Source: Eisenbergiella porci
GTDB lineage: Bacteria > Bacillota > Clostridia > Lachnospirales > Lachnospiraceae
Direction of reading: 5' to 3'
NCBI RefSeq assembly: GCF_009696275.1
Contig: NZ_VUMI01000001.1
Span: forward strand, 1 to 64,000
Length of the DNA stretch: 64,000 nucleotides
The notes under the pieces are model-generated. The model saw only the letters and a program-made list of their open reading frames with translations. It did not search any database and had not been told where the DNA came from. Shown here piece after piece: positions 33,209 to 51,431 of the stretch (position 1 is its first letter; every line of letters begins with the position of its first letter). Both the position numbers and the translations under genes were made by a program.

Positions 33209-34075
33209 TTACTTCATCAGCATGACTATCATCAGATTAATTCCGCCGGCCGCCAGCGTCACGATCCAAGTCCATTTCAGCATGGTCTGCCATCTCACTC
33301 TGGGGAACACGTTATCGATCAGCGTTTCCAGAAGGAATGAGGCCAGACATACCAGAATGGCTGCAGGAATGCTCAACCAGCTGGAGTTGACGATGAAAAG
33401 TCCGATGACTCCCAGCAGGAACACATTTTCATACCAGTGGGAAAGAGTTACCAGCGCCAGGATATTGCCGGAAAGCTCTGTAGTCAGGCCTCTGACCATT
33501 TCCTGATGGGCATGGTGGGAGGTACTGATGTCATAGGGTGATTTTCTGAACTTAATGGTCAGGATATAAAGGAAGCCGATAAAAAATCCGGGCAGAAGGC
33601 AGATTGCGGAAATATTGCTCTGCGCAATCTCCTTTACGGAAAAGCTTCCCGTCGCAATATAAAATCCAATGGCCGTCAGAAGCACCATCGGCTCGTAAGC
33701 CATCATCTGCATCAGCTCTCTCTGCGCCCCCATGGAGCTGTACGGCGCATTGGCCGAGCAGGCCGACATAATAAAGAAAATACCCGCCAGCGTCAGTGCG
33801 AAGAACACCAGCAGAATGTCTCCGCCCCAGAAGAACAATGCCCCTGTGAACACGACAAAAACCAGAAATCCGCAGACAAGGAAATCCTGCACGCTGTTTA
33901 CCACAACGGACTGCTTTGCAAAGAGCTTGTTGATTTCATAAAAGGGCTGCAGCACGGAAGGCCCTTTCCTGCCCTGCATTCTGGCAGCGACCTTACGGTC
34001 AATACCTTCCAGGAGGCCGCCGATAAAAGGCGCGCATACGATATACAGAATGGCAAACCAGAAATATTTTGACAT
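33209..34075 (-). CDS. echB: Ech hydrogenase membrane subunit EchB (NuoH-like)
   Basis: A 288-residue integral membrane protein with about eight helices, related to NuoH/HycD, which connects the hydrophilic arm with the ion pump. Recognisable are GGLLEGIDRKVAARMQGRKG in the first cytoplasmic loop and YDISTSHHAHQEMVRGLTTE. Its ATG overlaps the echA stop (TAATG). The acidic residues in the loops are typical of the ferredoxin-reducing hydrogenase version. Confidence 0.93.
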   Translation of the reverse strand: MSKYFWFAILYIVCAPFIGGLLEGIDRKVAARMQGRKGPSVLQPFYEINKLFAKQSVVVNSVQDFLVCGFLVFVVFTGALFFWGGDILLVFFALTLAGIFFIMSACSANAPYSSMGAQRELMQMMAYEPMVLLTAIGFYIATGSFSVKEIAQSNISAICLLPGFFIGFLYILTIKFRKSPYDISTSHHAHQEMVRGLTTELSGNILALVTLSHWYENVFLLGVIGLFIVNSSWLSIPAAILVCLASFLLETLIDNVFPRVRWQTMLKWTWIVTLAAGGINLMIVMLMK

Positions 34076-36000
34076 TACAGCGCACCTCCTATCGTCATAA
34101 TCATCAGAATAATCAAAGCCCCGCTGGCCAGTACCAGGGAAGGCAGAAGAAGCTTGTTTTCCGCAAAATAATCCGGCATATACCAGTTTGCCAGATACAT
34201 ATGCTTTTCTTCACCGAAGGAATCCGTGAAGTTTCTGTCGTCTCCCGCATTGGCTCCGCCCATGTAGGACATGACGATCTTGTTTTTCTTTCCAAGTGTG
34301 AGAATCCGCACCGCTATCGGAAGAACGAGGATGGTACACAGCATCATGATCATGATGTACAGGTTGCCGGTTCCGATAAGGTTAGGCACGTACTGATGAT
34401 ACATTTCCATCAGGAAAGGCTCAATCAGATAGGTGGACACCAGAGGGAAGGTCAGGCACAGTGTAACCATGAGTACGCTCAGGGAAATCAAAGAGGTCCA
34501 TTCGCTTTTCTTGGTCACGTTATTCAGGCGTTCCGAATGATGATGCACCGCTACCAGGGTGCCCAGCCACTTTGTCCAGTAAAAAAGTGTGGTGGCGCTG
34601 CCGAATACCAGGAAAATAACCAGCAGGATGCTTCCTGAATCCACATAAGCCTTTAATGCGGCCCATTTGGAAATCAGCATGCCGAAGGGCGCAAGGAACA
34701 TACCTGCAATACCGATAATCATAACATAGGCCAGCCCGGGCAGCTTCACAATCAGCCCGTGCATATCTTCAATATTCCTGCTTCCCGTACAGTTCTCCAC
34801 CGCGCCCACGGAAAGGAACATCAGGGATTTGGACACCGCATGGAACATCATCAGAAGGATCGCAGCCCACACCGCTTCATGCATACCCACACCGGCACAG
34901 GCTGTAATCAGCCCCAGATTGGAAATTGTGGAATATGCCAAAACCTTTTTCCCATCGTCCTGGGAAATGGCCAGCATGGAGGTTACAAGGAAGGTAAAGC
35001 CGCCGATGGTGGTAACCATCAGACCCGCCAGATTGCCTTCCATGGCAGGCGCCAGACGGATTAACAGGTATACGCCCGCTTTTACCATGGTTGCGGAATG
35101 CAGCAGCGCGCTGGTAGGCGTAGGCGCCACCATGGCTCCCAGAAGCCATCCGGAAAAAGGGAGCTGCGCGCTCTTGGTAAGTCCTGCAAAGGCAAGAAAT
35201 ACCACCGGGATCAAAGCCAGGCCCGCTTTCGCATCCGAGCTTACCGCAAGGGCCACCAGATCCTGAATATTGATAACCTGGAGGGAAATCGCCGCATAGG
35301 CAATTGCCACCGCAAAGCCCAGGCCGCCCAGCAGGTTCATCCACAGGGCCTTAAAGGAATTCTCCATGGCCTCATCCGTCTGATTGTAGCCAATCAGCAG
35401 GAAGGAACAGATACTGGTGATTTCCCAGAAGAAATAAATCCAGATCAGATTGCTGGAGAAAATCAGCCCCATCATGGCTCCCAGGAACAGAAACAGCATA
35501 CCGAAGAAAAAGTATCTTCTGTCCTTGTAATCCAGATGGTGTCTGTTGTAATCCTTCATATATCCAATTGCGTACACACAGATCAGACAGCCTACTATAC
35601 CGATAATCAGACTCATGGCAATGGTCAGCTTGTCCGCAAAAATATGATCGCCGGGTATCTCCGTCCGGCCGGTAAGCTCCAGCCAGGTCATCAGCCCCGT
35701 CTGCGCAATGGACAGCAAAGCACAATAATACTTTCTGAATTTAAAGCTGTAATAAAATACAAGAACTACCAGCGCCCATTCCACTACCAGCATCAGCATA
35801 TCGATACCGTGTGTGTGAGGCAGGTAGGAGACGGTCTCCCCTGAAACCAGGCTGGTTACCGCAAATAAAATGACTGCCGCTACTAAAATCCCGCAGAGAG
35901 TAAACTGGACGCATCTTCTGACCAGTCCGCTCTTTCTCATGCATGACATAACGAGCGCAGCAAAGAATGGAAACAGAATTAAAAAACCTATCATTCCCAT
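34075..36000 (-). CDS. echA: Ech hydrogenase ion-pumping subunit EchA (NuoL-like)
   Basis: A 641-residue antiporter-like membrane protein with 14 or more helices, homologous to NuoL/MrpA. It shows YFFWEITSICSFLLIGY, the SAQLPFSGWLLGAMVAPTPT segment with the pumping lysine region, LLHSATMVKAGVYLLIRLAP and conserved lysines in VLAYSTISNLGL. It should pump H+ or Na+ as electrons flow from ferredoxin to protons. It is the first gene of the operon, with a 105-nt leader after the promoter. Confidence 0.94.
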   Translation of the reverse strand: MGMIGFLILFPFFAALVMSCMRKSGLVRRCVQFTLCGILVAAVILFAVTSLVSGETVSYLPHTHGIDMLMLVVEWALVVLVFYYSFKFRKYYCALLSIAQTGLMTWLELTGRTEIPGDHIFADKLTIAMSLIIGIVGCLICVYAIGYMKDYNRHHLDYKDRRYFFFGMLFLFLGAMMGLIFSSNLIWIYFFWEITSICSFLLIGYNQTDEAMENSFKALWMNLLGGLGFAVAIAYAAISLQVINIQDLVALAVSSDAKAGLALIPVVFLAFAGLTKSAQLPFSGWLLGAMVAPTPTSALLHSATMVKAGVYLLIRLAPAMEGNLAGLMVTTIGGFTFLVTSMLAISQDDGKKVLAYSTISNLGLITACAGVGMHEAVWAAILLMMFHAVSKSLMFLSVGAVENCTGSRNIEDMHGLIVKLPGLAYVMIIGIAGMFLAPFGMLISKWAALKAYVDSGSILLVIFLVFGSATTLFYWTKWLGTLVAVHHHSERLNNVTKKSEWTSLISLSVLMVTLCLTFPLVSTYLIEPFLMEMYHQYVPNLIGTGNLYIMIMMLCTILVLPIAVRILTLGKKNKIVMSYMGGANAGDDRNFTDSFGEEKHMYLANWYMPDYFAENKLLLPSLVLASGALIILMIMTIGGAL

Positions 36001-37483: not shown

Positions 37484-39388
37484 TTAATTCTGTTTTGCTT
37501 CCAGCTCATCAAAGGAATCCTGACTCACCGGATAATAATAATAGAAGCCGGTGGCATAATCACAGCCAATGCTCTTTAAATACTCCGCCTGCTCTACGTT
37601 CTCCACTCCCATGCAAACCACCTTCAGATGCAGCTGACCGCAGAAATTCATGATGCTTTGGATGACCGTTTTCCCTTCCGGCTTATCAACGTGACGGATA
37701 AGGTCGTGCCTTAACTTAATGCTGTCCACGCCGCAGTCAAGGAAATCAAAAAAAACACGATCCAGTTCCAGCCCGGCCAGACAGATATGAAAACCATATC
37801 CGCGCAGTTTGCGGATTGTGTCCATAAAGCTGTCAGAACGGCTCATTTCGACCATCTGGTTCAGCTGTATTACAATTCTGTCCCGATCTATTCCATATTG
37901 CTCCGCAACCGTATTAAGTTCCTCCGCGAACTGTTCATCTCCTACGTTCTCAACCGTAAAATTAAACAGCAAATCCAGCTTTTTCCCCTTATCCGCCTCC
38001 TCTCTCAGGAAACGGCAGCCCTGACGGAAAATATCCATGTTCATTTTCCCTGTAAGCTGCTTACGTTTAATTACATCCAGGAAATCTCCCGGCTGCATAA
38101 GTCCCCGTCCCGGATTCTGCCAGCGTACAAGCGCTTCGGCTCCCATAATTTTCCCGCTGCCTATCTCAACAATCGGCTGGAGATACATAATGAATTCCTG
38201 ATGCATAAGGCCATGTATTGCCTCATGTTCCATGGCATATCCCGTTACGGTCTCCCGTTCTACCATTTCATCGTATACCGCGCATTCCATAAAATGGTTC
38301 CGCGCAAACTCCGCTGCAATTTCCGCTCTCTGAATTGTTTTCAAAGGCTCCGTTTCAAGTCCTGCCATGCGGTAAATACCGGTATGCGGTTCCAGGAAGT
38401 ATCTCTTCTGCTGCTTCTTAACCGCTTCCGCGATCCCTTCATGGATCTTTCCGATTCTTTCTTTTATACTGTCCACACTGGTATACTGCAGGGAAAAAAC
38501 ATAATAGAATTCATTGAACCGTGACATCGCTTCCTGTTTTTCATCCAGCATCGGTTCACAGAAATCACGTATTATCTGCAGCACCTTTTCAGATTCCGGA
38601 TACCCGTATATATGGCTGATCGTTTCAAGACCGGCATCCAGAAAAAGCACCGCATAATGTTCCCTGTTGCCGTCGTTTATCCGTTCTGAAAATTTCTGTT
38701 TCCAGGCCGTAAAATTATCCCCGCCCGTCAGCTCATCCCGATAAGCAAGCCGTATTACCTCCCTCCGTTTTCTTATGAGGTAAAGAAAAAGCGCAAGGAC
38801 AGCCAGCAAAAGGATAATAATTGAAATCCACATGTAAACAGCAGGCTTCCTGTTCTCCTGGTAAACAGATCTTGCATACTGCAGCAGCAGGTTTTCCAAT
38901 CGTGCATCATCTATGCCATCCAGCCCGGCTTCCAGTTTTTTCAGGTCTTCTTCCCGCATGCTTTCCGTATAAGCAAGACAAATATTTACCTTATCTTCCC
39001 CTTCCTGGAATACAAAACTGACATTACTCTTCCTTAGTCCCGCCTCTTCCAGTTCTTTTTCGGACAGGTCCAGTGTCCATACAGCATCCACCTGTATATT
39101 TCCTGCCAGTTCCAGACGTTTGTCTGTTTCCGACGGATCCACATAATGGATACCGAGTCCGGATTGTCCTGCCGCTTCTTCCAAAATATCCGGCAATACT
39201 CCCTGGTAGTTTTTGCTCTGGCTGTCATAATATTCAAGAGGCCAGGAATCAGGAATCCCTGCCATATATATCACATCCTCAGCGCCAAAAACAGCTCTGA
39301 GAGGCACCAGGAACCATAGAGCGGTAAATATGGCCGCCGCTGCAGGCCATCCCATAATTTTCCTTCTTTTCCCTTTATATTCACGCAT
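37484..39388 (-). CDS. Membrane protein with extracytoplasmic SBP-like domain and degenerate GGDEF-EAL domains
   Basis: A 634-residue protein: signal or anchor (about 12-36), an extracellular domain resembling family-3 solute-binding proteins (about 38-170), a membrane helix (about 184-204), then GGDEF and EAL domains. The GGDEF site reads RFNEFYY and there is no RxxD inhibitory site, so no cyclase activity is expected. The EAL domain keeps EALVRW but has LAGLEL where DDFG is needed, LNQM for the TE motif and MGVEN for EGVE, so it should not hydrolyse c-di-GMP. It is best seen as a receptor or scaffold that controls the GT2 synthase encoded just upstream (8-bp overlap). It is the last gene of the operon. 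Confidence 0.85.
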   Translation of the reverse strand: MREYKGKRRKIMGWPAAAAIFTALWFLVPLRAVFGAEDVIYMAGIPDSWPLEYYDSQSKNYQGVLPDILEEAAGQSGLGIHYVDPSETDKRLELAGNIQVDAVWTLDLSEKELEEAGLRKSNVSFVFQEGEDKVNICLAYTESMREEDLKKLEAGLDGIDDARLENLLLQYARSVYQENRKPAVYMWISIIILLLAVLALFLYLIRKRREVIRLAYRDELTGGDNFTAWKQKFSERINDGNREHYAVLFLDAGLETISHIYGYPESEKVLQIIRDFCEPMLDEKQEAMSRFNEFYYVFSLQYTSVDSIKERIGKIHEGIAEAVKKQQKRYFLEPHTGIYRMAGLETEPLKTIQRAEIAAEFARNHFMECAVYDEMVERETVTGYAMEHEAIHGLMHQEFIMYLQPIVEIGSGKIMGAEALVRWQNPGRGLMQPGDFLDVIKRKQLTGKMNMDIFRQGCRFLREEADKGKKLDLLFNFTVENVGDEQFAEELNTVAEQYGIDRDRIVIQLNQMVEMSRSDSFMDTIRKLRGYGFHICLAGLELDRVFFDFLDCGVDSIKLRHDLIRHVDKPEGKTVIQSIMNFCGQLHLKVVCMGVENVEQAEYLKSIGCDYATGFYYYYPVSQDSFDELEAKQN

Positions 39389-40820
39389 TTTTGCCTTCCA
39401 CCTTCTGTTCTTCCGATTGCTTCAGTTGAATTTTCTGACGCTGAATCTGTCCCCACACATTTTTCTTTTTCCGATAGCCGATAAATGCCGTCATTCTGGT
39501 GAACGCCTGTATAAAACGGAAAAATACGCTTTCTGAAATACACAGATAAATTGATTTAACCACATCCAGAAAGGACAGCTTGATGTTCTGCGTATAAATC
39601 CTTGCAAAAAAAGCAGTAATTGTAAGTACCGCTCCGTAAAGCGCATAAATCATGAAAAACAGCACCATAAAAGGGACGTTTATCAGATTAACCGCATATG
39701 CAAGTATAATAGTGAGCAGACCAAAAAGCTCAATAAACGGCGACAGCAGTTCATAAAGAAGATAGTATAAATAGGACACATAGCCCACCACGCCGAACTC
39801 AGGGGCAAGAAACATCCTGCGATGCTTGCTCAGGCACTGGAACAGCCCCAGATACCATCTGCGGCGCTGCTTCTTCAAATCCTTAATGCTGGACGGACAC
39901 TGGCTCCAGCAGATGGCATCCGGAACATAACGGATACTGTAGGGGATTTTATTTATCCGGCAGAAGGAATGGAGCTTTACCACCAGTTCCATATCTTCTC
40001 CCATGGTGTCGGTATCATATCCCTTCACAGCGGCTGCCATATCCTTCCTGAATAAACCGAACGCCCCTGAAATAATCAGGTTGCCGTTAAATTTATCCAG
40101 GAAAATACGGGATGCCATAAATGAACGGTCATATTCCAGAATCTGCATCCCCACAATCGGATTCCAGGGCATATGATAGTCCACCAGTTCTCCTTCATTA
40201 AGAACCGCACAATTAGAAATACGTACCAGTCCTCCAACGGCTACTATGGTATCATCCTGCAGTACCGGTTTTACAATTTCCTTCAGCGAGTCCTTCTGCA
40301 GAACACTGTCAGCATCCATACAGATAAAGTATAGATACCTGGAGGCATTAATGCCCATGTTCAAAGCATCAGCCTTTCCGCCGTTTTCCTTCTGCACAAG
40401 GGTAACAGTAATACCATTCACTACCGTTTCATAAACGTTGATTCCCCTTTTACAGGGAATCTGGCGGTTAATCGGACGATTTACCTTTCTGAGCGAAAAC
40501 GTATCGAGGAGCACCTGCGTTGTATTATCACTGGATCCGTCATCTACCACAACGATTTCATACAGCCTGTAATCCATCATCAGCAGGGATTTAACCGTAT
40601 CCGCCACAGTGATTTCCTCATTATAAGCAGGAACGATAATAGTCACCGGCACATAATAATCATGTGATATTTCATTATGATATTTTTTCTTTTTGTTTTC
40701 TTTATACAGATCCAGTGAGCCATATATGACAGACAGCATCAGAAATGTGGAATAGCCCAGCAGATATATAACAAAAATGACGCCAACACAGCTGTAAAAT
40801 AACTTTATCGCATCAAACAT
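39381..40820 (-). CDS. Processive GT2 membrane glycosyltransferase (glycan synthase)
   Basis: A 479-residue enzyme of the BcsA/IcaA/YdaM type that polymerises a sugar and passes the chain through its membrane helices. There is an N-terminal helix (about 10-30), a GT-A domain with VVVDDGSSDNT, MDADS, GEDMEL and QRRRW, and three or four C-terminal helices (about 335-430). The motifs D, DxD-like, ED and QxxRW are all intact. There is no PilZ domain, so any c-di-GMP control must come from another protein, such as the degenerate GGDEF-EAL protein. The sugar is unknown. It overlaps the preceding and following genes by eight bases each. Confidence 0.92.
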   Translation of the reverse strand: MFDAIKLFYSCVGVIFVIYLLGYSTFLMLSVIYGSLDLYKENKKKKYHNEISHDYYVPVTIIVPAYNEEITVADTVKSLLMMDYRLYEIVVVDDGSSDNTTQVLLDTFSLRKVNRPINRQIPCKRGINVYETVVNGITVTLVQKENGGKADALNMGINASRYLYFICMDADSVLQKDSLKEIVKPVLQDDTIVAVGGLVRISNCAVLNEGELVDYHMPWNPIVGMQILEYDRSFMASRIFLDKFNGNLIISGAFGLFRKDMAAAVKGYDTDTMGEDMELVVKLHSFCRINKIPYSIRYVPDAICWSQCPSSIKDLKKQRRRWYLGLFQCLSKHRRMFLAPEFGVVGYVSYLYYLLYELLSPFIELFGLLTIILAYAVNLINVPFMVLFFMIYALYGAVLTITAFFARIYTQNIKLSFLDVVKSIYLCISESVFFRFIQAFTRMTAFIGYRKKKNVWGQIQRQKIQLKQSEEQKVEGKNA

Positions 40821-41958
40821 TTACCTGTTCCTCTTTCATTTCCTGCTGTCTGATTTGTTCCTTCTCCAGAACGTATCTGATAATTTCCCTGGCATACCGG
40901 TCTCTTCCGTTTTCCACATCGAAAAGCCGGAGCCTTGATATTCCCAAACCGTAAATCAGGGCCTCCGCGCAGTTAAGGCGAACATACCAGTTAGCCGCCT
41001 TCAGGCCTTCCTTCAGGCAGAAAACAGTATCCTCCCCCGGATAAGACGCAAGGGTGGAGGCGGCCATCGCCGCATACTCCCAGTCTATATATTCCTGATA
41101 ACGGACGTAGTTCTGAAGAATTTCCCTGACTGGCTCATAGGGATATCTGCGGAAATAACGGATAGCTTCCAGCTGTATCTCCTTATCTTCATTTTTTCCT
41201 GACAGCAGCGTAAAAAACTGCTGCTGAAAGTCCCCTGTAAAAAAACGGATAAACTGCATGACCGGCAGAAAAAGTGTGGTGCCAAACTCTTCCCTGTGGG
41301 CGAAAAGCAGCTTTGCAAGCTCCTTCCTGTCTCCCCGGAAGCTCAAAAGGCCATCGGCCAGCAGCTTACGGCTGTGGCTAATTTCATTGTCCTCCAGTTT
41401 TCTCCATATGGCCAGAATTGCGCTTTCATTGCCAATGGCATAAAAAGCCCTCATTGCATTTTCACGGGCATTTACATCCTTGCCTGTAATCATATCCATG
41501 AGGAAATCCATAATGCCGTCAAAGCTTTCCCTTCCTTCATCAATTCTGAATTTTTCAATCAGATAGGCAAAATAAGCCTGCTCAATCGTATCACTCTTAC
41601 GGTATACGCCTGCCAGCTCCAGAAATACGCCCCGCAGGCTTCGCAGATATTCCGCGGTGTATTCCTCCGGCGCCTGTTGCTTTACAGTAAGCACGGAGTA
41701 TTCAAACGCCCGCAGCTTTTCCGGATTTTTCAGTTCCTTCCTCAGCCTTTTGTAATGTGCGGCCTCAGGCTCCCTGGCCTCCTTCAGCCGTTCGATTTGA
41801 GCCGATATTTCTCCTACAAAGGACAGGCTTCTTTTTTCCAGCGCCCTTCCTTTATATTTGTCAGCAAAAATATAAAGGATATTGAAAACAAGCACGGATA
41901 TGCAGCTTGCCATATAAATATACAGGATAACCTCCGGCCGGAATGACAGCACATGCAT
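40813..41958 (-). CDS. HEAT-repeat-like membrane protein of the polysaccharide operon
   Basis: A 381-residue protein with one N-terminal membrane helix (about 8-30) and a long all-helical cytoplasmic part. Repeating helical pairs (AMRAFYAIGNESAILAIWRK, QLEAIRYFRRYPYEPVREIL, CAEALIYGLGISRLRLF) suggest a HEAT/Armadillo solenoid, a protein-binding scaffold. It is encoded directly before the glycan synthase with eight bases of overlap, so it likely docks on it. No enzyme motif is visible. The 3' end encodes a basic/acidic tail. Confidence 0.78.
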   Translation of the reverse strand: MHVLSFRPEVILYIYMASCISVLVFNILYIFADKYKGRALEKRSLSFVGEISAQIERLKEAREPEAAHYKRLRKELKNPEKLRAFEYSVLTVKQQAPEEYTAEYLRSLRGVFLELAGVYRKSDTIEQAYFAYLIEKFRIDEGRESFDGIMDFLMDMITGKDVNARENAMRAFYAIGNESAILAIWRKLEDNEISHSRKLLADGLLSFRGDRKELAKLLFAHREEFGTTLFLPVMQFIRFFTGDFQQQFFTLLSGKNEDKEIQLEAIRYFRRYPYEPVREILQNYVRYQEYIDWEYAAMAASTLASYPGEDTVFCLKEGLKAANWYVRLNCAEALIYGLGISRLRLFDVENGRDRYAREIIRYVLEKEQIRQQEMKEEQVNV

Positions 41959-41975
41959 GATGCTCCTCCTTTATA

Positions 41976-44138
41976 CTACCCGGCATTTTTTGCCCATATT
42001 TCCTTTACAGCATAGTAAGACTGCTTCAGGCGCTCATGATACTCGGGATTTTTTCCCCATCCCACCAGCGGCATTTCTCCCATTCTGATTCTTGTCCCTT
42101 TATCCTCCGATGATCCAAGCCCTGCATATATACTGTCAATCTTCAGATTCTCAATGCCGTAATTTTCATAGTAATCATCGTGTACCTGCTGTTCTGCGGG
42201 ATTGGAAAAATTAAGAAGCTGCCAGGGAAGGCGGATTTCGATTTCATTGCCTTTTACAATAAAATCCGATACGGAATTATAGTCTTCACTGTAAGGGTTC
42301 CCGTTTCCAAAGGTGAGGCGGCCTGTCTCAAACCTTTCAGCCATCTTATCTTCTTCCTGCACTGCATTAATTTTTCCGAGCTGCAGCGCCATATAAATAT
42401 TGACAAATAACGGTGAATCTTTATCCGGGACATTAAAATAGGGATTTTCTTCCCCGTAATCTTCTGCAAAAATTACCCGGAATGCCTCGTATCGCTCCTG
42501 AACCAGTACCTTGCTGTTGTCTTCACCATCAAGAACGATCAGGAAATCTGCCTGACTGTCAAATTTAAGTTCTTCTTTTTTCGCATAATAGCTTCCTGTT
42601 TTCGGGGTAACATCGACAGGAATATAGAGAATTTCCTTCGGATTCGGATGTTCCTGATGTATTCTGAAATATATAAATTTCTCGTCGTATTTCATATACA
42701 GCCGGGAGCTTCCATAATCTGCAATCAGATCCTTCTCGCTCCATTCATCCACATCCCCATCCGTATAACATACGCTTGTCTCCTTGCCCGGATCAAAAGC
42801 CATAAGCCCGAAGAACTGTTCATTTGTCTGGAAATTACTCCAATATGCCGTTTTGGATAAATCAACATTAGCCATGGTATTCCAGGTCCGTTTAAACCAT
42901 TCATCCTGCCAGGAAAAAATAACACAGCCGGCACATCCGGCCCTGCGGATGTCTTTATAGCTTTCCACAATAGCCGTCCCTTGTTCCTGTTCCGACATAT
43001 AGCCCTGGGATCGAGCTGTAAAAAAGTCAAGCTGCGCCCTTCCTCTGGAGGTAGGGACGCCGAATTCCGATATGACCACCGGCATTTTATGATGCCTGCA
43101 GAGTAATTCCAGATAAATGCCATAGGTGTTATAATCACCATCTTCCAAACGATATTCTTCTGCGAATGGGATTTCATTCTTCCAGCTGTCATAGTGGGCC
43201 AGATAATCCGGATAATAGGAATACACATGATAAGAAGCAAATTGTCCTGATTTAAAACGATCCGTAGAAAGAATATGCTCCACATCCACGCTGGCGCACT
43301 TCATAAAAAGCTTTTTGACCTCTTCCGGATAATCCAGAGGATCTGTAGTAGGCCAGTTAGAGAAAGCGATAAGACGCTGTTCTTTATATTTTTCACTTTC
43401 ATACCTGATGATTTTGTTTCCGACTTCAGCAAGCATAGCTTCAAATGGCGTGGCTTCTTCGGACGTATACATATAATCCCCATGATAGCCGTTGTTTTCC
43501 GGCTTCATATGATTCGTATAGGCGACGGTAACATCTTCCCATTCTACGCCCAGAATATAACCCAGCACCCAGTCTGAAATATCCTTATTATAAACGCCGC
43601 TGGCACTGGTCGCCTGATAACCCAGATTGATTTTACGCCTGCCGTGAATAACATCCACAAGCGTTCTGCAATCTTCCAGAAGCGCCTCTCTAATGGAGTC
43701 ATCATAGGCGTCCACATGTGAATTCTGGACATAATCGTTCACCCATACACCATGCAGTATATATAAGGGATTAGGATTATCCTTGTTATATTCGTATACC
43801 GCCTCGTAAAAATCCGGTATCTGTATAGTATAAACACGGATGGTATTCGCCCCCATCTCCTGAATCATACCAAACCAGCGAAGATACGTTTCCTTATCAA
43901 TCGCAAACTCTGTGGAAAAATATCCCGGTATTCCTACTCCCATGTCAACGCCCCGGATTTCAAAGGGTTCCATTCCCTTTCCCGTATCAGCCAGGATTTC
44001 TTTTCCCTGCGTAGTCGCAAAAAAAGATACCTCCTGATCTTTATTTAAATCTATGTATACGCCCCATCGGTAATACGCCATATCCAACAAAAAAAGGAGA
44101 AGGATTGCCGTAATTGCCGCAATTAAAAACTTTTTCAA
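41976..44138 (-). CDS. Membrane-anchored glycoside hydrolase-like protein
   Basis: A 720-residue protein with an N-terminal membrane anchor (about 4-22) and an extracellular TIM barrel (about 55-470) of the GH clan A kind: RGVDMGVGIPGYF, MGANTIRVYTIQIPDFY, a candidate acid/base in LGVEWEDV, and a candidate nucleophile in VISEFGVPTSRG. A C-terminal beta-sandwich (about 480-720), with RLYMKYDEKFIYFRIHQEHP and EIRLPWQLLNFSNP, resembles carbohydrate-binding domains. In an export operon such an enzyme would trim or transfer the glycan after export. The exact GH family is not clear to me. Confidence 0.75.
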   Translation of the reverse strand: MKKFLIAAITAILLLFLLDMAYYRWGVYIDLNKDQEVSFFATTQGKEILADTGKGMEPFEIRGVDMGVGIPGYFSTEFAIDKETYLRWFGMIQEMGANTIRVYTIQIPDFYEAVYEYNKDNPNPLYILHGVWVNDYVQNSHVDAYDDSIREALLEDCRTLVDVIHGRRKINLGYQATSASGVYNKDISDWVLGYILGVEWEDVTVAYTNHMKPENNGYHGDYMYTSEEATPFEAMLAEVGNKIIRYESEKYKEQRLIAFSNWPTTDPLDYPEEVKKLFMKCASVDVEHILSTDRFKSGQFASYHVYSYYPDYLAHYDSWKNEIPFAEEYRLEDGDYNTYGIYLELLCRHHKMPVVISEFGVPTSRGRAQLDFFTARSQGYMSEQEQGTAIVESYKDIRRAGCAGCVIFSWQDEWFKRTWNTMANVDLSKTAYWSNFQTNEQFFGLMAFDPGKETSVCYTDGDVDEWSEKDLIADYGSSRLYMKYDEKFIYFRIHQEHPNPKEILYIPVDVTPKTGSYYAKKEELKFDSQADFLIVLDGEDNSKVLVQERYEAFRVIFAEDYGEENPYFNVPDKDSPLFVNIYMALQLGKINAVQEEDKMAERFETGRLTFGNGNPYSEDYNSVSDFIVKGNEIEIRLPWQLLNFSNPAEQQVHDDYYENYGIENLKIDSIYAGLGSSEDKGTRIRMGEMPLVGWGKNPEYHERLKQSYYAVKEIWAKNAG

Positions 44139-44152
44139 TTGATTGCCCCCAA

Positions 44153-45601
44153 TCAGTGGTTAAACTTCTTATTTATCGATTCATGGCTGTAGGAACGCAA
44201 ATCCTCAATATGCTCATCCATCCACCTCATACGCCTGACCAAACGCGTTTCATATTGTTCCACAGCAGCTTCATAGGAGCCTATTTTCCGCTCATCCTCA
44301 TACAGCAGATCCTTTTCCGGCAGGAAACTGTATCCCCATTTTCCAAAATTGCGTTCTATGGCCGGGCCCAGATAACTCTGTACCCCGGCGATATAGCTTT
44401 CCACCGCTTCCTCACTGAGTATCCCCTTACGTAGCTGATGGTATCTTGTTATCACCTTTTCCATAAAAGCTTCATCCTTACACAGCATGAAATACCAGGG
44501 ACGGTTCTGCATAAAGAAGCCTGCCATCGGAGTCTGATCTTCTATATAATTATCACAACAGTTATTGAAATCCCAGACGCACATTTTAAGCTTTCCGCTG
44601 ACATCCTTATAAAAATAAGTGGAATAAAGACCCGCGTCTGTATTCTGGGTAACTTCATTTATGATAAAGTAATCGACAAAGCTGTCCACATCAATATAAT
44701 TCTGATATCCGTATCTGGCCGTATCATAGTCAAAGGAATATAATGCTTTTTCAAATCTGGAAAAATCACGGCTGATGTATTCAGTCAGTTCCGGCGTTAT
44801 CCGTGATGTTCCCGGATATTTTACCTCCAGCTTTCCGTTGATTCTCAAAACATAGCTTGTGAAATTATCCAGGTACTGCACATCATTGACACTCTCACGG
44901 TCAGCACAGACAATATAACTGGAAATATTGGACTTTCCGTCATATTTCGTCATTTCGATTCTGCCTTCTCCCATACTGATCTGCTCAGCCATTACATAAA
45001 GCCCCTGATACTCGTGATCCAGAAAGACTTCACAGTACCGGACATCCGGCGCCCATTCCATAATCTGCCCTGCCAGATTGTACCACATGTAATTACGCAT
45101 CAGGGTTTTATCCAGATAAGGCCCGTGAAGCACCCATGTGCTGTCCTTTTCCATACCCATGACTTCCAGTTTGCGTTCCATGCCCGCATCATCCGTAAAT
45201 TTGAACAGATACCCCATTTTATCAAACGTCCTGGAGGAATTGCCCCTGACGCGAATATTGATTTTAGATTCCAATACAGGCTGGGAGCTTAGCTTATTCA
45301 GTTCCCCTTCCCTGTCATAAATCCGCATATCCGCCTGTATAAAGCTGTTCTCAATATCTTTTACATGCTGCCCCTGCTCCGGCCGGCCTGGAATAACCAC
45401 CCCGCCAGTTTCGATACTGACCACCGACAGATGTGATGAGAAAGTATCCTCATCAATTGACAGACTGGTATCTTCTATCTGTGTATTGTATGACAGATGC
45501 TGCTGATACCGCTGCTTTTCCGGATCGATATGCCTGGAAAGCAGCAAGGCTGCCAGAAGCAGAAGCACTACCAGTCCTGTGTAAATTTTTCTGCTGTTCA
45601 T
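44153..45601 (-). CDS. cotH: CotH-family protein kinase-like protein
   Basis: CotH proteins are atypical kinases; Bacillus CotH phosphorylates spore coat proteins. The 482-residue protein has a membrane anchor (about 8-24) and a complete CotH domain: INIRVRGNSSRTFDK, YLFKFTDD, GPYLDKTLMRNYMWYNLAGQ, EYQGLYVMAEQIS and the active-site KMCVWDFNNCCDNY. The anchor suggests an extracytoplasmic domain. It sits next to DUF4956 (four-base gap) and near a VTC protein, a trio often found together. Possible substrates are the glycan or a surface protein. Kinase activity here is inferred from motifs. Confidence 0.88.
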   Translation of the reverse strand: MNSRKIYTGLVVLLLLAALLLSRHIDPEKQRYQQHLSYNTQIEDTSLSIDEDTFSSHLSVVSIETGGVVIPGRPEQGQHVKDIENSFIQADMRIYDREGELNKLSSQPVLESKINIRVRGNSSRTFDKMGYLFKFTDDAGMERKLEVMGMEKDSTWVLHGPYLDKTLMRNYMWYNLAGQIMEWAPDVRYCEVFLDHEYQGLYVMAEQISMGEGRIEMTKYDGKSNISSYIVCADRESVNDVQYLDNFTSYVLRINGKLEVKYPGTSRITPELTEYISRDFSRFEKALYSFDYDTARYGYQNYIDVDSFVDYFIINEVTQNTDAGLYSTYFYKDVSGKLKMCVWDFNNCCDNYIEDQTPMAGFFMQNRPWYFMLCKDEAFMEKVITRYHQLRKGILSEEAVESYIAGVQSYLGPAIERNFGKWGYSFLPEKDLLYEDERKIGSYEAAVEQYETRLVRRMRWMDEHIEDLRSYSHESINKKFNH

Positions 45602-45605
45602 TTTC

Positions 45606-46283
45606 TTACCCGCTTATTTCATCATTCTGCGTCACGACGTTCACATACTCAATAGATTCCAGCTCATACAGCATTTCAATGATGCTTTTTTCCTTTTTAT
45701 TGGAAAGCAGATAAGTTTTCCGGGGCATTTCAAATATCAGCTCAATGGAATCCCTGCTGGTATTCTTGACACGCATCATGGCCTTTGCCTGAAAATAATC
45801 AAAAACCACCGCCTCAATTCTGCGTTCCATGTTTCTCGCGCCCCGGATGATGAGAAGTATCCTGTTGTCATTTTTTACTCTTCCCAGAATCAGAAGTACA
45901 ATAAATACAGCGCCGCTGCCAATAACAGCCACTATATAATCCCCTACGCCGCAGCAGATTCCAACGATTATTGTCCAGAAAATATATGCGGTATCTCTGG
46001 AATCCTTAATCGCCGTACGGAATCTGACGATGGAAAGCGCGCCGACCATACCAAGGGAAAGCGCTATGTTATTGCCGATAACTGTCATAACCGTTGCCGT
46101 AAGAATGGTCAGGGTGATAAGTGAGACGTTGAATTTTTTGGAATAGACGCCGCCTGCATGCGTAAAATAATAGGATAAGTAAATAACGCAGGCCAAAATT
46201 GATGCTACAAGGATATGCAGGAAAATTTCTTCCGTAGACAGGGAACCAGATTCCTGAAATATTGTATAAATATAATCTTTCAT
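45606..46283 (-). CDS. DUF4956 membrane protein
   Basis: A 225-residue protein with an N-terminal region, three to four membrane helices (about 20-130) and a C-terminal cytoplasmic alpha/beta domain (RNMERRIEAVVFDYFQ, SIEYVNVVTQNDEIS). The signature VGALSIVRFRTAIKDSRDTAYIFWTI is the conserved core of DUF4956. The function is unknown; the family is nearly always next to VTC-domain and CotH genes. The soluble tail resembles an ACT-like or ligand-binding domain. It follows the VTC gene by 96 bp. Confidence 0.85.
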   Translation of the reverse strand: MKDYIYTIFQESGSLSTEEIFLHILVASILACVIYLSYYFTHAGGVYSKKFNVSLITLTILTATVMTVIGNNIALSLGMVGALSIVRFRTAIKDSRDTAYIFWTIIVGICCGVGDYIVAVIGSGAVFIVLLILGRVKNDNRILLIIRGARNMERRIEAVVFDYFQAKAMMRVKNTSRDSIELIFEMPRKTYLLSNKKEKSIIEMLYELESIEYVNVVTQNDEISG

Positions 46284-46379
46284 GAGTTTTTCCTCTCTTA
46301 TGCACGATTGTTGAATTAAATACGGGTGAATCAGTTTTCACCCAAAAGCTGCTTCCAGCTTCACAATAGCAGCTTCCCA

Positions 46380-47075
46380 TTAAAACAGATAATGAAGCCC
46401 GGCGCTCCTGGATAAACAGTATTTACTTACTGATGTGGGGGTTTTCCCTTCCAGACTCACCATCTGTTTAATATAACTGAGCATAAATCCGTTATACTTT
46501 ACTTCCATTACCACAAGATACGGATCAAGTACCGGATTCTGATTCAATACAGGTGAAAACAGCCGGAAATCGCTTTCTGTCGCCTTAATTGCAAAATCAA
46601 AGGTAATTCTCGTTTTATTTTCACTGGTCACATAAGCCTTTCTCTGATATTCCACTATTGCTTTCGGCCTGTAGCAGAGCATATTCATCAGTCCATAGCA
46701 CTCCATGGCAAAGGAATCTGTATAGTGAAGCAGGCAGGAATATTCTCCCCGTGACAGAGCTTCTGCATCCTCCCGGTCAAGGCGCAGAGAACGCTTTTTC
46801 TGATTTTCTCCCTGCTTCTGTTTCATTTCCAGCATGGCAAAATCAGAATCGGGTGAATATGTTCTCAGCCGGATTTTTCTCCGTATCTCAAGACCGTCTT
46901 CTTTTTCGTAAAAATCTCGCTCCTGCATGGTATCAAAATATAGACTTCTTATCGGATACCCCATCTTTCCATTATGTGAATCAGGATGCAGTACCTGTTC
47001 AAAGGTATGATCCAGCCTGCGGAACTGGTCATAGGAAAGCAGGTATTTCTTTTCCTGCCGAAGAACCTCATTCAT
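46380..47075 (-). CDS. VTC-domain (polyphosphate polymerase-like) protein
   Basis: A 231-residue protein with the triphosphate-tunnel fold of VTC4, which makes polyphosphate from ATP in yeast. Seen here are EKKYLLSYDQFRRLD, YPIRSLYFDTMQ, GLEIRRKIRLRTY, FAMLEMKQKQGENQKKRS, VEYQRKAY, ITFDFAIKA and LVVMEVKYNGFMLSY, giving alternating Arg/Lys and Glu on the tunnel strands. Bacterial members are usually encoded with DUF4956 and CotH. It has no membrane segment. It might make polyphosphate or transfer phosphate for the exported polymer. Its start overlaps the upstream lipoprotein gene by four bases. Confidence 0.88.
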   Translation of the reverse strand: MNEVLRQEKKYLLSYDQFRRLDHTFEQVLHPDSHNGKMGYPIRSLYFDTMQERDFYEKEDGLEIRRKIRLRTYSPDSDFAMLEMKQKQGENQKKRSLRLDREDAEALSRGEYSCLLHYTDSFAMECYGLMNMLCYRPKAIVEYQRKAYVTSENKTRITFDFAIKATESDFRLFSPVLNQNPVLDPYLVVMEVKYNGFMLSYIKQMVSLEGKTPTSVSKYCLSRSAGLHYLF

Positions 47076-47968
47076 GCATTCTCCTCCTTCTCCATAAGGT
47101 GCAGGCAGGGCTTCAGATAGTGCCAGGAAAATCCAAGATATTCGTAAGGATATTCCTGCCTGAGCCTCTCCCAGCTTTCCAAAACCGCGTCAAAGCCATC
47201 GTAATAATATGTATTCTGTTCCGTCAGGCTGTGATATCCGGGTTTCTGCATTTCAGTAATATGGATAATTCCTTTTTTATACTTTTCAGCGAGTTCCATT
47301 TCACCGGCAATCTGTCCCGTTTCATCCCTTTTGTCGTAATTCATAACAGCAATACCGTCACAGCCTTTCTGTACCAAAAGCTCAAGCTGTTCCGTCAGGC
47401 CTGTTCTGTCATAAAAATTGGGGATACAGACGATAACTGCCAGTTGTTCCTTTTGGGCTTCTTCATAAGCATGAATACAGTTTTCAACATACTGCTGCAT
47501 ATATTCTTCCCTGTTATCTTCCCATTCATCCAGCAGATATGGCTCCACATCCCATACAATGCCTGTAAATCCTTTTCCTTCTCCGGCTTTTCGGTTCCAT
47601 TCTGCGGTATTTTTTACAGCTTCCAGCATGTAAACTGCATTTTCCTGCAGGCCCCATTCAGATGCGCCGGCAAGATAATACACCAGCTGCCCTTTTTCCC
47701 CGCGCCGTTTCAAATAATCAAGTACCTCCGCCTCCTGCGCATCCGACGGGATCTGCTGGTATACCACATTGCAGCCAAGCCGTTCCATCACCTTTTCTAC
47801 TTCTTCCTCCATTTCCGGCAGTATATACTCTTCTTCCCAGGAAAAAAGGCTTGTCTCACTTACCAATGCTGTCTTACTCTCCTTTCCAGGCCCGCATCCC
47901 GATAATACGATCGATGCTGCTGAAAGCCAGATTCCCGCTTCGGCAAATATGCAAAAATGTCTTTTCAT
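47072..47968 (-). CDS. Lipoprotein with TIM-barrel glycosidase-like fold
   Basis: A 298-residue exported lipoprotein (lipobox LSGC at about residue 25). The mature part looks like a TIM barrel related to family 18/other glycosidase-like folds: FTGIVWDVEPYLLDEW, LAVIVCIPNFYDRTG, CDGIAVMNYDKRDETGQIAG and YEYLGFSWHYLKPCL. The WDVEPY acid pair is a candidate active site. It is the first gene of the eight-gene polysaccharide operon, so it probably acts on the glycan outside the cell. No exact family could be fixed. Confidence 0.72.
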   Translation of the reverse strand: MKRHFCIFAEAGIWLSAASIVLSGCGPGKESKTALVSETSLFSWEEEYILPEMEEEVEKVMERLGCNVVYQQIPSDAQEAEVLDYLKRRGEKGQLVYYLAGASEWGLQENAVYMLEAVKNTAEWNRKAGEGKGFTGIVWDVEPYLLDEWEDNREEYMQQYVENCIHAYEEAQKEQLAVIVCIPNFYDRTGLTEQLELLVQKGCDGIAVMNYDKRDETGQIAGEMELAEKYKKGIIHITEMQKPGYHSLTEQNTYYYDGFDAVLESWERLRQEYPYEYLGFSWHYLKPCLHLMEKEENA

Positions 47969-48305: not shown

Positions 48306-51300
48306 TTATTCTACCCGGAACACCCTGGGCGCCGCCAGGATTCCCATTCTCTTCAGCTGATACTCATAGCTGTAGCCGGCTCCCTCCGTTCTCCATGCAT
48401 TCGGGCCTGCCCAGGCGTTCTTCTCGTCACAGATATGGACGGTTCCGAAAGCATTATAACGGTTGCCGTAGGACGTCAGCGTAATGCTGTGCCTGCCTTT
48501 TTTCAGATATCCCAGGGATAACTGGTACGGGGAGAGGGCAATTCTTCCTGCAGCTTTCCCGTCTACCTCCACCTTCAGAAGCGGCGCGCGGAACTTTTCT
48601 GCGGCAATCACATACTCTCCGTCCTCTTCTGCATCCAGCTGTGCTTCATAAATCATGTTTCCTGCATAGAAGGGGAAGCCCTGTGTGCTGTAATCACCGA
48701 AGGCCACGGTCTCCGGCAGCTTTGTCAGGCAGGCCTCGCTGCCCTCCGCTCTTACGCCGAAGCTGCCCAGCAAATAGCACCATTCCGGGTTGGTGTCCCT
48801 GGAATATGCCAGCTTCAGGATAAGCTCCGAGGTGCCTGCGGGTATGGCGGGCAAAGGGAACCTGCGGATGCATTCGTCCACAAAATAGCCGCAGTCCTTC
48901 TTTTCCACTTTCTCCCCGTTTAAGTATATGGTGGTTGCGCCTGATTCTTCGAGAGCCAGCGAGGCATCCGTCACCTGGATTTCCGACCGGATGGTGAACC
49001 TCATTTCCAGCACATGCTCCGGCTGTGCCTTTTCCGATGTCCAGGGCTGTGCAAAGGCTTCCATCCGAAGAGGATAACCTGCAGCCTTCCTGCATTCATT
49101 GTCCAATCTGAGAATCTCTTCCTTATCCTTCCAGGAGTCTCCTTCCTTCCCGTCAAAACGGTACTCCGCCATGTCCAGAAGAAGCACATTCGGCTCCGAC
49201 AGACGGTAAGGCATACGGGTAGGAAGCCTGCGGCCCTCCGCCTTTGTAAAGCAGGCTGCGTGGCCTTCCTTTACACCGGCTGCAGTGCCGGCCGCCGGCA
49301 CCTGCGTGGAAACCAGCTTCAGCAGCACGCTGGAATGATCATACATGCGGCGGGTAAATGATGTAACCCCGTTTTCTGTTCCTGCAGAAAGCGCCTTAAT
49401 TTCTCCGGTCATGGTATCATATTCCCAAACCTCCCAAAGCCCTTTCAGGCGGAAGGTGATATTTTCTTCCGTGGGGATATCCTTGTTGACCGTTTTTTTG
49501 CCGTTTACAACGAACAGCCAGCGGCCGTCGTTGTCCTGGCGCATCTGGTAAAGCAGATGATCTGCCAGGCTGCCGTTTTCGCTGCGCAGTTCCACTTCCC
49601 TGTAATCTTCCAGCGCTCTTACCAGCTCGCTTCTGGAAAAACCGGCGCTGCGGCTGTTTTCATAAAGCGCTTTTCCTTCTTCATCCGGCACAGCATCCAC
49701 CAGTTCGGGGGCTGCGCCAAGGAAAAGAAGGTCGCCTCCTGCCAGGCGGTATTCCTTCAGGCAGGAAACCGTAGTGGAACGCAGGGTTTCGCAGCCGGGA
49801 ACGATAACCACATCATAGGCCATTTCTCCTACATGAAGCCTGCCGTCCTCCGTTTTTTCATACTGTATGGGAAGAAGGGATTCTGCGATAAAGTCAAAAT
49901 CCAGCTGGGAGAAAAGGAGCCATTCCGTCAGGTTCCGGAATCTGCTTTCCATCTCTTCCCTGATCAGGGCAGTCTGTTCCTTCGGCCCATAGTGCAGCCA
50001 GTAGCTTTCAATCGGATGGACAACGCCGATGCGTACACGGGCCTTCCCGCGGGTAAGGGCCGTATTTACCCTTGCAAAATGATCCTCTATCATGCGGTAT
50101 TCCTTATACCAGGGGGACTGATAGAAGATGGAGGCCGGATAGTCCCTCTTTGCCTCACCGTTCATGCTGTCCCAGGAAAGATGATGGACACGCAGGGTCA
50201 CTCCCAGCGCCGCCTGCCAGTCTCCCGCCAGCTTATGTCCCCTGAAATCAAAATCCCAGTTGGTTACGCCGTACAGCTCGCTGAGCACGCCGGGACAGCC
50301 AAACTGATGGGATGCGGACTGAGCCTGTTTCGCCGTGGTGTATTCCCGCCAGTCACAGAGCATATCGATGCCCGGCATCTGAAAACTGCGGTAAGAACGC
50401 ATGGCTTCTCCCAAAGCGTTGGTCTGGGAGGTCAGCGTAGGCTCCTCCATCATATGTCCGGTGAGCATGATATTGTGATCCCGGCACCAGTTCCCGATGG
50501 TATCCGCAAAGGAGGAGGCAAAACGCTCCGCCACAAAATCATGATAATGATACCGGGCAACGGACACCTTATCCTCCGGAAGCTCCCAGATAAGCTCCGG
50601 CACCGAGGCAAAGAAATCTTCGCCATAAGCCTCCCTGTATGCCGCCGGCAGCCCGTCGGTATAGGGAAGGATGACATCCTCTCCTGACTCGGCAAAGCTC
50701 AGCGTGGTTTTATGGGAAAACTGAGGCTCATCCGTAAAAATGGAGGGCACTGTTTTCCCGAATTCATCACCCACACAGTCCAGATACTGTTCATGCGTTT
50801 CTTCAATAAACCTGCGGATTGCCCTGGGATTCAGCGTATCCACATAGGTTTCGTTATTGTACCAGGGGCTTTCTCCGGCGATTTCTTCATACAGATACCA
50901 GACGTTGCTTCCTGTTTCCCCTTCCTGCAGCCGGCGGTACTCCTTCAGGCAGCCGTCCTCCAGCGTGATATCATAACGGGCAAGAAGCGTTCCGTTCCCC
51001 TGTACGGCAGCCTTGCTGGAGGAATCAAAACGTTCCTCCTCTCTTTTCCTCTCTTCATTGGAAAAAGGAGTAAAAACCAGATATCTGCTGCGGTATTCCA
51101 CATCCTTTGTCACCTTTCCTCCGGCCGCGCCGGAAGGCCAGCGATCCTCGTCATACAGATAGGCGTACATGCCGTCTTTTTTTGCCTTATCCACACAGGC
51201 GCGCACGCAGGCCTTATACTCATCGCCCAGATAGGGCGTGTCCAGACCCGTACGGCAATGCATATGAAAACCGCCGATCCCCATTTCCTTGAAATAATCG

Positions 51301-51431
51301 ATGTGCTTTACCAGCACTTCAGGCGAAAGCGCCTGGTTCCACGCCCAGAACGGCGCCCCTCTGTATTCATTTGTTGGATTTTGGAACAATTCAGCACTCA
51401 GGCTTTTTTCTTCTTTTTTTGGATATAACAT
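48306..51431 (-). CDS. GH106-like glycoside hydrolase (alpha-L-rhamnosidase-type)
   Basis: A 1041-residue enzyme without a signal peptide, so cytoplasmic. The N-terminal segment is typical of the GH106-like superfamily: RGAPFWAWNQALSPEVLVKH, GIGGFHMHCRTGLDTPYLGD and AYLYDEDRWPSGAAGG, followed by a TIM barrel to about residue 480 and C-terminal beta-sandwich domains with WEVWEYDTMTGEI and a final galactose-binding-like domain. GH106 enzymes release L-rhamnose from plant pectin or glycosides; many relatives are uncharacterised. It is divergent from an AraC gene at 51609, which is likely its regulator. Confidence 0.82.
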   Translation of the reverse strand: MLYPKKEEKSLSAELFQNPTNEYRGAPFWAWNQALSPEVLVKHIDYFKEMGIGGFHMHCRTGLDTPYLGDEYKACVRACVDKAKKDGMYAYLYDEDRWPSGAAGGKVTKDVEYRSRYLVFTPFSNEERKREEERFDSSSKAAVQGNGTLLARYDITLEDGCLKEYRRLQEGETGSNVWYLYEEIAGESPWYNNETYVDTLNPRAIRRFIEETHEQYLDCVGDEFGKTVPSIFTDEPQFSHKTTLSFAESGEDVILPYTDGLPAAYREAYGEDFFASVPELIWELPEDKVSVARYHYHDFVAERFASSFADTIGNWCRDHNIMLTGHMMEEPTLTSQTNALGEAMRSYRSFQMPGIDMLCDWREYTTAKQAQSASHQFGCPGVLSELYGVTNWDFDFRGHKLAGDWQAALGVTLRVHHLSWDSMNGEAKRDYPASIFYQSPWYKEYRMIEDHFARVNTALTRGKARVRIGVVHPIESYWLHYGPKEQTALIREEMESRFRNLTEWLLFSQLDFDFIAESLLPIQYEKTEDGRLHVGEMAYDVVIVPGCETLRSTTVSCLKEYRLAGGDLLFLGAAPELVDAVPDEEGKALYENSRSAGFSRSELVRALEDYREVELRSENGSLADHLLYQMRQDNDGRWLFVVNGKKTVNKDIPTEENITFRLKGLWEVWEYDTMTGEIKALSAGTENGVTSFTRRMYDHSSVLLKLVSTQVPAAGTAAGVKEGHAACFTKAEGRRLPTRMPYRLSEPNVLLLDMAEYRFDGKEGDSWKDKEEILRLDNECRKAAGYPLRMEAFAQPWTSEKAQPEHVLEMRFTIRSEIQVTDASLALEESGATTIYLNGEKVEKKDCGYFVDECIRRFPLPAIPAGTSELILKLAYSRDTNPEWCYLLGSFGVRAEGSEACLTKLPETVAFGDYSTQGFPFYAGNMIYEAQLDAEEDGEYVIAAEKFRAPLLKVEVDGKAAGRIALSPYQLSLGYLKKGRHSITLTSYGNRYNAFGTVHICDEKNAWAGPNAWRTEGAGYSYEYQLKRMGILAAPRVFRVE

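Follow-up and report, generated by a model that had tools for sequence, protein, structure and literature searches.

The window analysed here, a stretch of 64,000 nucleotides of Eisenbergiella porci (contig NZ_VUMI01000001.1), contains an operon of eight genes (Table 1), the inner six of which, VTC-DUF4956-CotH-g5-HEAT-GT2, are a real unit. It is proposed that the phosphate-linked module VTC-DUF4956-CotH is part of a conserved operon whose predicted product is a synthase-dependent exopolysaccharide, a reading to which we give a probability of about 0.6; at the cell surface, the module likely contributes phosphate chemistry. An earlier sequence-only reading of this DNA had taken the genes for a single system, and the neighbourhood search bears this out: the six genes recur in the same exact order in many other genomes, so the arrangement is beyond chance, and the opposite picture, with the trio and the GT2 in separate places, does not hold where this GT2 lineage occurs.

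Table 1. Genes of the operon in order of transcription, with positions in the window (aa, amino acids; TIM, TTM, GH-A, ACT and SBP are fold or domain names).
Gene	Positions	Strand	Description
g1	47072..47968	minus	298 aa, lipoprotein-like, predicted TIM barrel, putative glycoside hydrolase; optional operon member
VTC	46380..47075	minus	polyphosphate-polymerase (TTM) domain protein, predicted cytosolic
DUF4956	45606..46283	minus	MgtC-like membrane protein with C-terminal ACT/ferredoxin-like domain
CotH	44153..45601	minus	membrane-anchored CotH-family kinase, predicted outward-facing (orientation inferred)
g5	41976..44138	minus	720 aa, membrane-anchored GH-A-like TIM barrel with C-terminal beta-rich region
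HEAT	40813..41958	minus	HEAT-repeat protein with an anchor; predicted to scaffold the synthase in the cytosol
GT2	39381..40820	minus	predicted processive family-2 polysaccharide synthase
GGDEF-EAL	37484..39388	minus	N-terminal domain SBP-like; GGDEF and EAL both degenerate in the window

With the HEAT protein as query, 295 genomes of the same order were searched and up to 20 kb was fetched around the matches; the protein occurs in 34 of these genomes and 21 of 130 genera, giving 33 neighbourhoods besides the window. Twenty-five of the 33 have the six genes in exactly this order on one strand, CotH in L058 and HEAT in L076 each being split into two open reading frames (ORFs), and contig ends cut four others (L066, L067, L079 and L088). 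Within the genus, a GT2 orthologue of 89-100% identity is present in three of 13 genomes, each with all eight genes (the window, L024 and L025). A scan of named genomes with a GT2 alignment, in which the best 80 of at least 464 relatives were kept and up to 10 kb was fetched on each side, yielded the six genes in order at 11 of the 80 loci (with a 1.45-kb insert in L091) and cut or partial versions at four (L089, L092, L094 and L098); the trio-bearing GT2 lineage reaches records titled Solobacterium (L099), Erysipelotrichaceae (L100) and Bacilli (L096). The eight-gene unit first proposed is therefore to be narrowed: the inner six are constant, whereas g1 and GGDEF-EAL are optional neighbours, since among the 25 complete order-level neighbourhoods g1 is adjacent in three and GGDEF-EAL comes next after GT2 in ten.

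The six genes also share a history. In 38 operons (the window, L024, L025, 23 of the 25 order-level operons, 11 named ones and L197; L058 and L076, with a gene split in two, were omitted here and from both trees), the distance matrices of all 15 gene pairs correlate with r between 0.59 and 0.93, and 0 of 999 permutations reach as high. The VTCs of the operon form one clade with support 98/97 in a tree of 77 rows, for which a long-branch warning was given (L083, an operon row, is among those named) and from which the VTCs of L186 and L205 are missing. The GT2s from trio-bearing operons likewise group in a single clade (SH-aLRT 98); their tree of 98 rows is of the quick kind without bootstrap, excludes frames longer than 560 aa and has L127 in twice, once mislabelled 'g5_no_trio' (hence two changes for that label). 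Both trees are compatible with the trio having joined the synthase once and stayed there, although they leave one origin standing rather than prove it. That the genes are mere neighbours on a co-mobilised island, having no joint function, appears to us very improbable: their patchy spread, seen in the counts for the GT2 orthologue in the genus (3/13) and for HEAT in the order (34/295), would suit such an island, but the fixed order, the short junctions and the correlated histories in 38 operons do not.

ORF coordinates and junctions agree with the eight closely spaced same-strand genes described earlier, which run from 47968 down to 37484. Overlaps of 4 bp at g1/VTC and of 8 bp at both HEAT/GT2 and GT2/GGDEF-EAL, and gaps of 4 bp at DUF4956/CotH, 14 bp at CotH/g5 and 17 bp at g5/HEAT, leave the 96 bp between VTC and DUF4956 as the single long gap. 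Co-transcription is argued from spacing and conservation, because the counts of promoter-like sites in the window (23 vs 24.2 in shuffles, standard deviation 4.6) and of terminator-like sites (14 vs 10.2, standard deviation 3.3) are about at shuffle level; scans of the window gave no Rfam family at threshold and no tRNA. An 8-pair hairpin is located at 46323-46344 on the minus strand, inside the 96-bp gap, and belongs to the class of sites that occur at about shuffle level.

Analysis of the polymer-making genes supports a glycan synthase and an anchored HEAT protein as its candidate scaffold, as had been suggested. GT2 matches PF00535 (E 1e-26), and every one of the 38 operons keeps its motifs D, DxD, ED and QxxRW. 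HEAT, directly upstream, matches PF13646 (HEAT_2, E 2.2e-6) and has one N-terminal transmembrane (TM) segment in all 38; in several phyla, its homologues immediately precede related GT2s. For g1 and g5 no Pfam family scored over the cut-off, and the nearest named relatives of both are from Lachnospiraceae, including Blautia. The N-terminus of g1 is hydrophobic with LSGC, its profile finds 10yv, an entry named as a putative GH97, at E 1.6e-7, and D140, E142 and P143 are invariant in nine of nine aligned homologues (85 homologues in total at E <= 0.001). A PDB profile search with g5 gave nothing at E 0.01, and its fold assignment is taken from a structure model; at least 3,971 relatives at E <= 1e-10 were found among 7,993 candidates scored. 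The idea of two extracellular glycosidase-like proteins thus stands as far as the N-terminal anchor or signal of each goes, but the putative catalytic Glu of g5 is missing in many operons.

GGDEF-EAL contains an EAL domain (PF00563, E 2.1e-44), a GGDEF domain (PF00990, E 5.6e-8) and a TM segment at 187-205, with the SBP-like PF00497 under the cut-off. The GGDEF motif is lost in all 12 aligned homologues. The ExTE and DDFG motifs of EAL are lost in the window, L024 and L025, the three genus members aligned, but kept in nine of nine aligned homologues of other families, so that the catalytically dead protein of the sequence-only reading is found here with both domains degenerate, the EAL degeneracy being confined to these three. 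Degenerate c-di-GMP receptors of the LapD/FimX kind have lost the catalytic motifs and kept ligand binding, and in this genus GGDEF-EAL may be a second-messenger or ligand receptor rather than an enzyme.

VTC matches PF09359 over the cut-off (E 2.6e-41), and its profile matches yeast Vtc4 (3g3q, E 7.1e-11). R69, R71 and E191, invariant in 38/38 operons, align with R264, R266 and E426 of Vtc4, a pairing read from the profile alignment with an assumed chain-number offset of 3, in which the E426 end belongs to a weak second stretch. Three Vtc4 residues were changed to inactivate that enzyme (PMC9911596), and VTC resembles the catalytic domain of the eukaryotic Vtc1/3/4 complex in having those three residues; it differs in having no SPX and no TM part of its own (hydropathy gives 0 TM segments in 38/38 operons) and in being partnered by the MgtC-like DUF4956 instead of Vtc1. 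DUF4956 itself matches PF16316 (E 4.2e-13) and reaches 29.3 bits (E 1.2e-6) against MgtC (PF02308), below the cut-off of 31.4. Its structure model (pLDDT 78.9) has long helices and an ACT-like C-terminus, with the C-terminal domain of MgtC (2lqj, E 1.2e-3) as top Foldseek match; a PDB profile search gave chance-level matches only. We considered DUF4956 as a Vtc1-type channel and dropped it, the top Foldseek matches being of the MgtC/ACT kind and none at E <= 0.001; a channel role is one that we could only infer.

CotH matches PF08757 over the full model (positions 1-322 of 322, E 1.1e-57), has one N-terminal TM segment in 38/38 operons and keeps D322, D344 and N346 invariant in all of them. 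Single-sequence PDB searches with CotH and with VTC returned no relevant match; the match of CotH to Bacillus cereus CotH (5jd9, E 3.4e-7) is restricted to an N-terminal stretch, and D322 and D344 are candidates for the known active-site aspartates. The name CotH comes from the spore coat, and the operon might build a spore-surface polysaccharide with CotH acting as in the Bacillus coat. Of the 32 genomes that carry the operon, whole or cut by a contig end, 28 do have SpoIVA, as do 21 of the 23 carriers with completeness of 90% or more and contamination of 5% or less; it is not found in G280 and G468, which are 96% and 94% complete, and its absence from the other two carriers says little because both are below 85% complete. 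This test has weakened the spore-coat reading, which, with the N-terminal TM segment of CotH in every operon and a like trio at work in non-sporulating streptococci, we consider improbable.

Outside this operon, VTC and DUF4956 behave as a module. Among 249 genomes sampled from the phylum, VTC is present in 35 and DUF4956 in the identical 35, a coincidence expected at about 2e-43 if the two were independent and phylogeny is ignored. DUF4956 lies within 1.5 kb on the same strand at 41 of 43 VTC loci and within 3 kb at one more, the last being at a contig end; the two of 44 DUF4956 places that have no adjoining VTC are a contig end (G368) and a fused frame (L211). Both proteins match in the same three of 14 control genomes, a Bacteroides, a Corynebacterium and a Methanosarcina. 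CotH is located within 3.5 kb of 27 of the 43 VTC loci. PelG occurs in three of the 35 VTC genomes and a GT2 of the present kind (E <= 1e-40) in seven. The module is bound neither to pel nor to this synthase, since one VTC locus of 43 adjoins pelG (L187, G411) and two (the window and G468) are in this operon. A further operon type (L173:4961-11970 and L209:1877-9628) has another GT2 and a DHHW protein, then VTC-DUF4956-CotH, with an LRR protein in L173 and a bactofilin-like one in L209; matches to bactofilin, AlgX and MBOAT (the last for the L209 DHHW protein) are below cut-off, and the VTCs of both are the sister group of this operon's VTCs. In L169-L210, VTC-DUF4956 often has as neighbours two proteins of roughly 225 and 410 aa (cluster c0) that, judged by eye from N-terminal sequence and length, look like a response regulator and a histidine kinase, and Cthe_2159 or LRR/lamin-tail proteins may replace CotH. 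The genome of the window has a second set (L023:7592-10308, contig C106) in what by eye is a capsule-like glycosyltransferase region, with a DUF4956 of only 143 aa.

The trio beside a polysaccharide synthase is already known from pel. In the available part of PMC7112168, CotH, a poly-phosphate polymerase, DUF4956 and DUF4832 stand beside clostridial and streptococcal pel, and bifidobacterial pel has a diguanylate cyclase/phosphodiesterase (GGDEF/EAL) replacing DUF4832. Gram-positive pel loci (PMC7112168 and PMC12345266, both in part) thus resemble this operon in placing CotH, a polyphosphate polymerase and DUF4956 by a synthase, but they make their polymer via PelF/PelG and have no GT2-HEAT-g5 core; by Pfam, none of the eight genes has PelG or a GT4-type domain, and PelG matches lie on another contig, C2. 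Strict gene order differs as well, VTC-DUF4956-CotH here against CotH-CotH-VTC-DUF4956 in the pel locus L187 and CotH-VTC-DUF4956, with no pel, in L023. With gene order left free, the present data go against a 2025 study whose accessible text reports the trio only beside a different polysaccharide system. On contig C2 of the same genome (L211, about 124263-131316), a pel locus has a DUF2194/GT fused frame of 1018 aa together with a shortened PelG that runs on in frame into DUF4956 (477 aa); neither VTC nor CotH has a match on this contig, and the locus looks like a decayed or collapsed pel locus.

The following mechanism is proposed. GT2, held by HEAT at the cytosolic face, would polymerise and extrude a beta-type glycan, which g5 and, where present, g1 may guide, bind or trim outside, to judge from fold and hydropathy. 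VTC would make polyphosphate from ATP in the cytosol, DUF4956 could couple VTC or its polyphosphate to the membrane, and the outward CotH would phosphorylate either the polymer or a protein partner. A VTC-made phosphate chain is an attractive donor route because the kinase would stand outside, where it has no ATP, and all sampled genomes with VTC also have the membrane protein beside or near it or elsewhere in the genome. That the polymer is phosphorylated is a plausible hypothesis, against the simplest form of which a published knockout speaks. In favour of the proposed reading, in the pel locus of Streptococcus intermedius, loss of the CotH or the DUF4956 homologue alters the amount of Pel and lowers aggregation by more than 50% in 10% ASM (PMC12345266, in the part available).

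Several observations weigh against the proposed reading. In that same available text, the DUF4956 mutant has more Pel and the CotH mutant less, and the mutant of the VTC homologue (SIR_1593) aggregated and is unnamed among the mutants with changed aggregation or Pel; such differences argue against a simple donor chain, which predicts all three alike. By Foldseek DUF4956 resembles MgtC, a regulator, rather than the Vtc1 channel. The trio is tied to GT2 in this lineage, as had been claimed, but lies mostly elsewhere (only the two of 43 VTC loci given above are in the operon), and 16 of the 43 have no CotH nearby. Four of the 33 order-level neighbourhoods have HEAT and GT2 without the trio (L081 and L085-L087), three of them with g5-HEAT-GT2, and no VTC, DUF4956 or CotH was found within up to 10 kb on each side in 65 of the 80 named relatives, 37 of which have HEAT directly upstream of GT2, in several phyla. 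The matrix correlations may partly reflect host descent, the single joining is drawn from trees of two of the six genes, VTC and GT2, and the scan for promoter-like and terminator-like signals is near shuffle level. The distribution of these loci fits a widespread GT2-HEAT pair, which g5 joined mainly in Firmicutes and the trio in one GT2 lineage of clostridia and relatives.

A stronger version of the donor route would make VTC and DUF4956 a bacterial polyphosphate polymerase-translocase, the counterpart of the vacuolar VTC, which feeds an outward CotH and lets it phosphorylate the exopolysaccharide without ATP; this operon would be its dedicated GT2 version, the module being shared with pel and other loci. 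Because the S. intermedius mutants disagree and DUF4956 is regulator-like, we regard this version as unlikely and hold the module reading at about 0.6. It is possible, if the less probable course, that the trio regulates rather than modifies, with VTC and the MgtC-like DUF4956 sensing polyphosphate or phosphate and CotH phosphorylating a protein partner to tune synthesis. The MgtC-like fold and ACT domain of DUF4956, the c0 pair so often beside VTC-DUF4956, the opposite changes in Pel level when SIR_1592 or SIR_1594 is lost (PMC12345266, in part) and the protein phosphorylation proposed by the 2020 pel authors (PMC7112168, in part) are all in keeping with regulation. However, an intracellular regulator leaves the N-terminally anchored CotH of all 38 operons unexplained, and at ten of the 16 CotH-less VTC loci the third gene falls in a cluster with Cthe_2159 carbohydrate-binding proteins (counted by sequence cluster, with a Pfam check on three members), which points outward.

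As to other known systems, the PgaC/IcaA model of PNAG synthases is the best NCBIfam match of GT2, yet at 147.4 bits it is below the cut-off of 422.3, and by Pfam no deacetylase domain of the PgaB/IcaB kind is present in the operon. Bacillus subtilis ydaJKLMN and Listeria pss combine a GT2 synthase, a degenerate GGDEF protein and a hydrolase, and BcsB-like and NodB-like partners define the set. The analogy drawn with them in the sequence-only reading holds for this logic but not for membership, since this operon has in addition the trio, HEAT and g5, and Pfam finds no BcsB-like or NodB-type protein among its eight genes. The stalk genes of Zetaproteobacteria, which include a CotH domain (PMC8250860, in part), were considered as a relative and dropped, the gene set being different.

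The closest match in print appears to be NELoc-2 of Clostridium perfringens (CP4_0458-0468), whose published table, in the part of PMC2879425 available, lists VTC of 230 aa, 'tubulin/FtsZ' of 222, CotH of 497, an unknown protein of 685, HEAT of 377 and GT2 of 466. By comparison with this table alone, order and lengths match the six genes, the 222-aa 'tubulin/FtsZ' being about as long as DUF4956, and NELoc-2 appears to list the same operon, uninterpreted; it differs by a second VTC/'tubulin' pair, a resolvase and a sigma factor, and GGDEF-EAL is missing from the table. Its authors weighed chitin synthesis and plasmid segregation. Other sources, each available in part, describe the NELoc-2 genes as polyphosphate polymerase, CotH, HEAT and glycosyltransferase with a polysaccharide deacetylase and an anti-sigma factor (PMC11677781), report two of them lowered in vivo (PMC4983038) and place NELoc-2 in all necrotic-enteritis strains studied and in some non-chicken strains (PMC5964661). 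The combination taken earlier for a new variant is thus not new in kind, with the trio by a synthase known from pel and the set apparently listed in NELoc-2, but in the sources as available it is a conserved operon type for which we found no name or function in print; among the papers listed by full-text searches, judged by titles and the starts of abstracts, none treats it as a polysaccharide system. The word DUF4956 also occurs in PMC6848847 and PMC10434189.

Two neighbours of the operon were assigned by eye, both on the minus strand: a 1041-aa glycosidase-like gene at 48306-51431, 337 bp upstream, and, beyond its other end at 34075-36000, a large multi-TM protein similar to a proton-pumping NADH dehydrogenase/antiporter subunit.

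The operon matters because the 2025 study, in its accessible text, placed the trio only beside a different polysaccharide system. So far a pel accessory of unknown role, the trio is here an independent module, with VTC and DUF4956 together in all VTC genomes sampled, and in one lineage it has become linked to the GT2-HEAT core, which spans several phyla. The operon offers a reading for NELoc-2, described in 2010 without a settled function, and provides a test bed for the role of VTC proteins in bacteria and for the reason that polysaccharide synthases have an anchored CotH kinase as companion.

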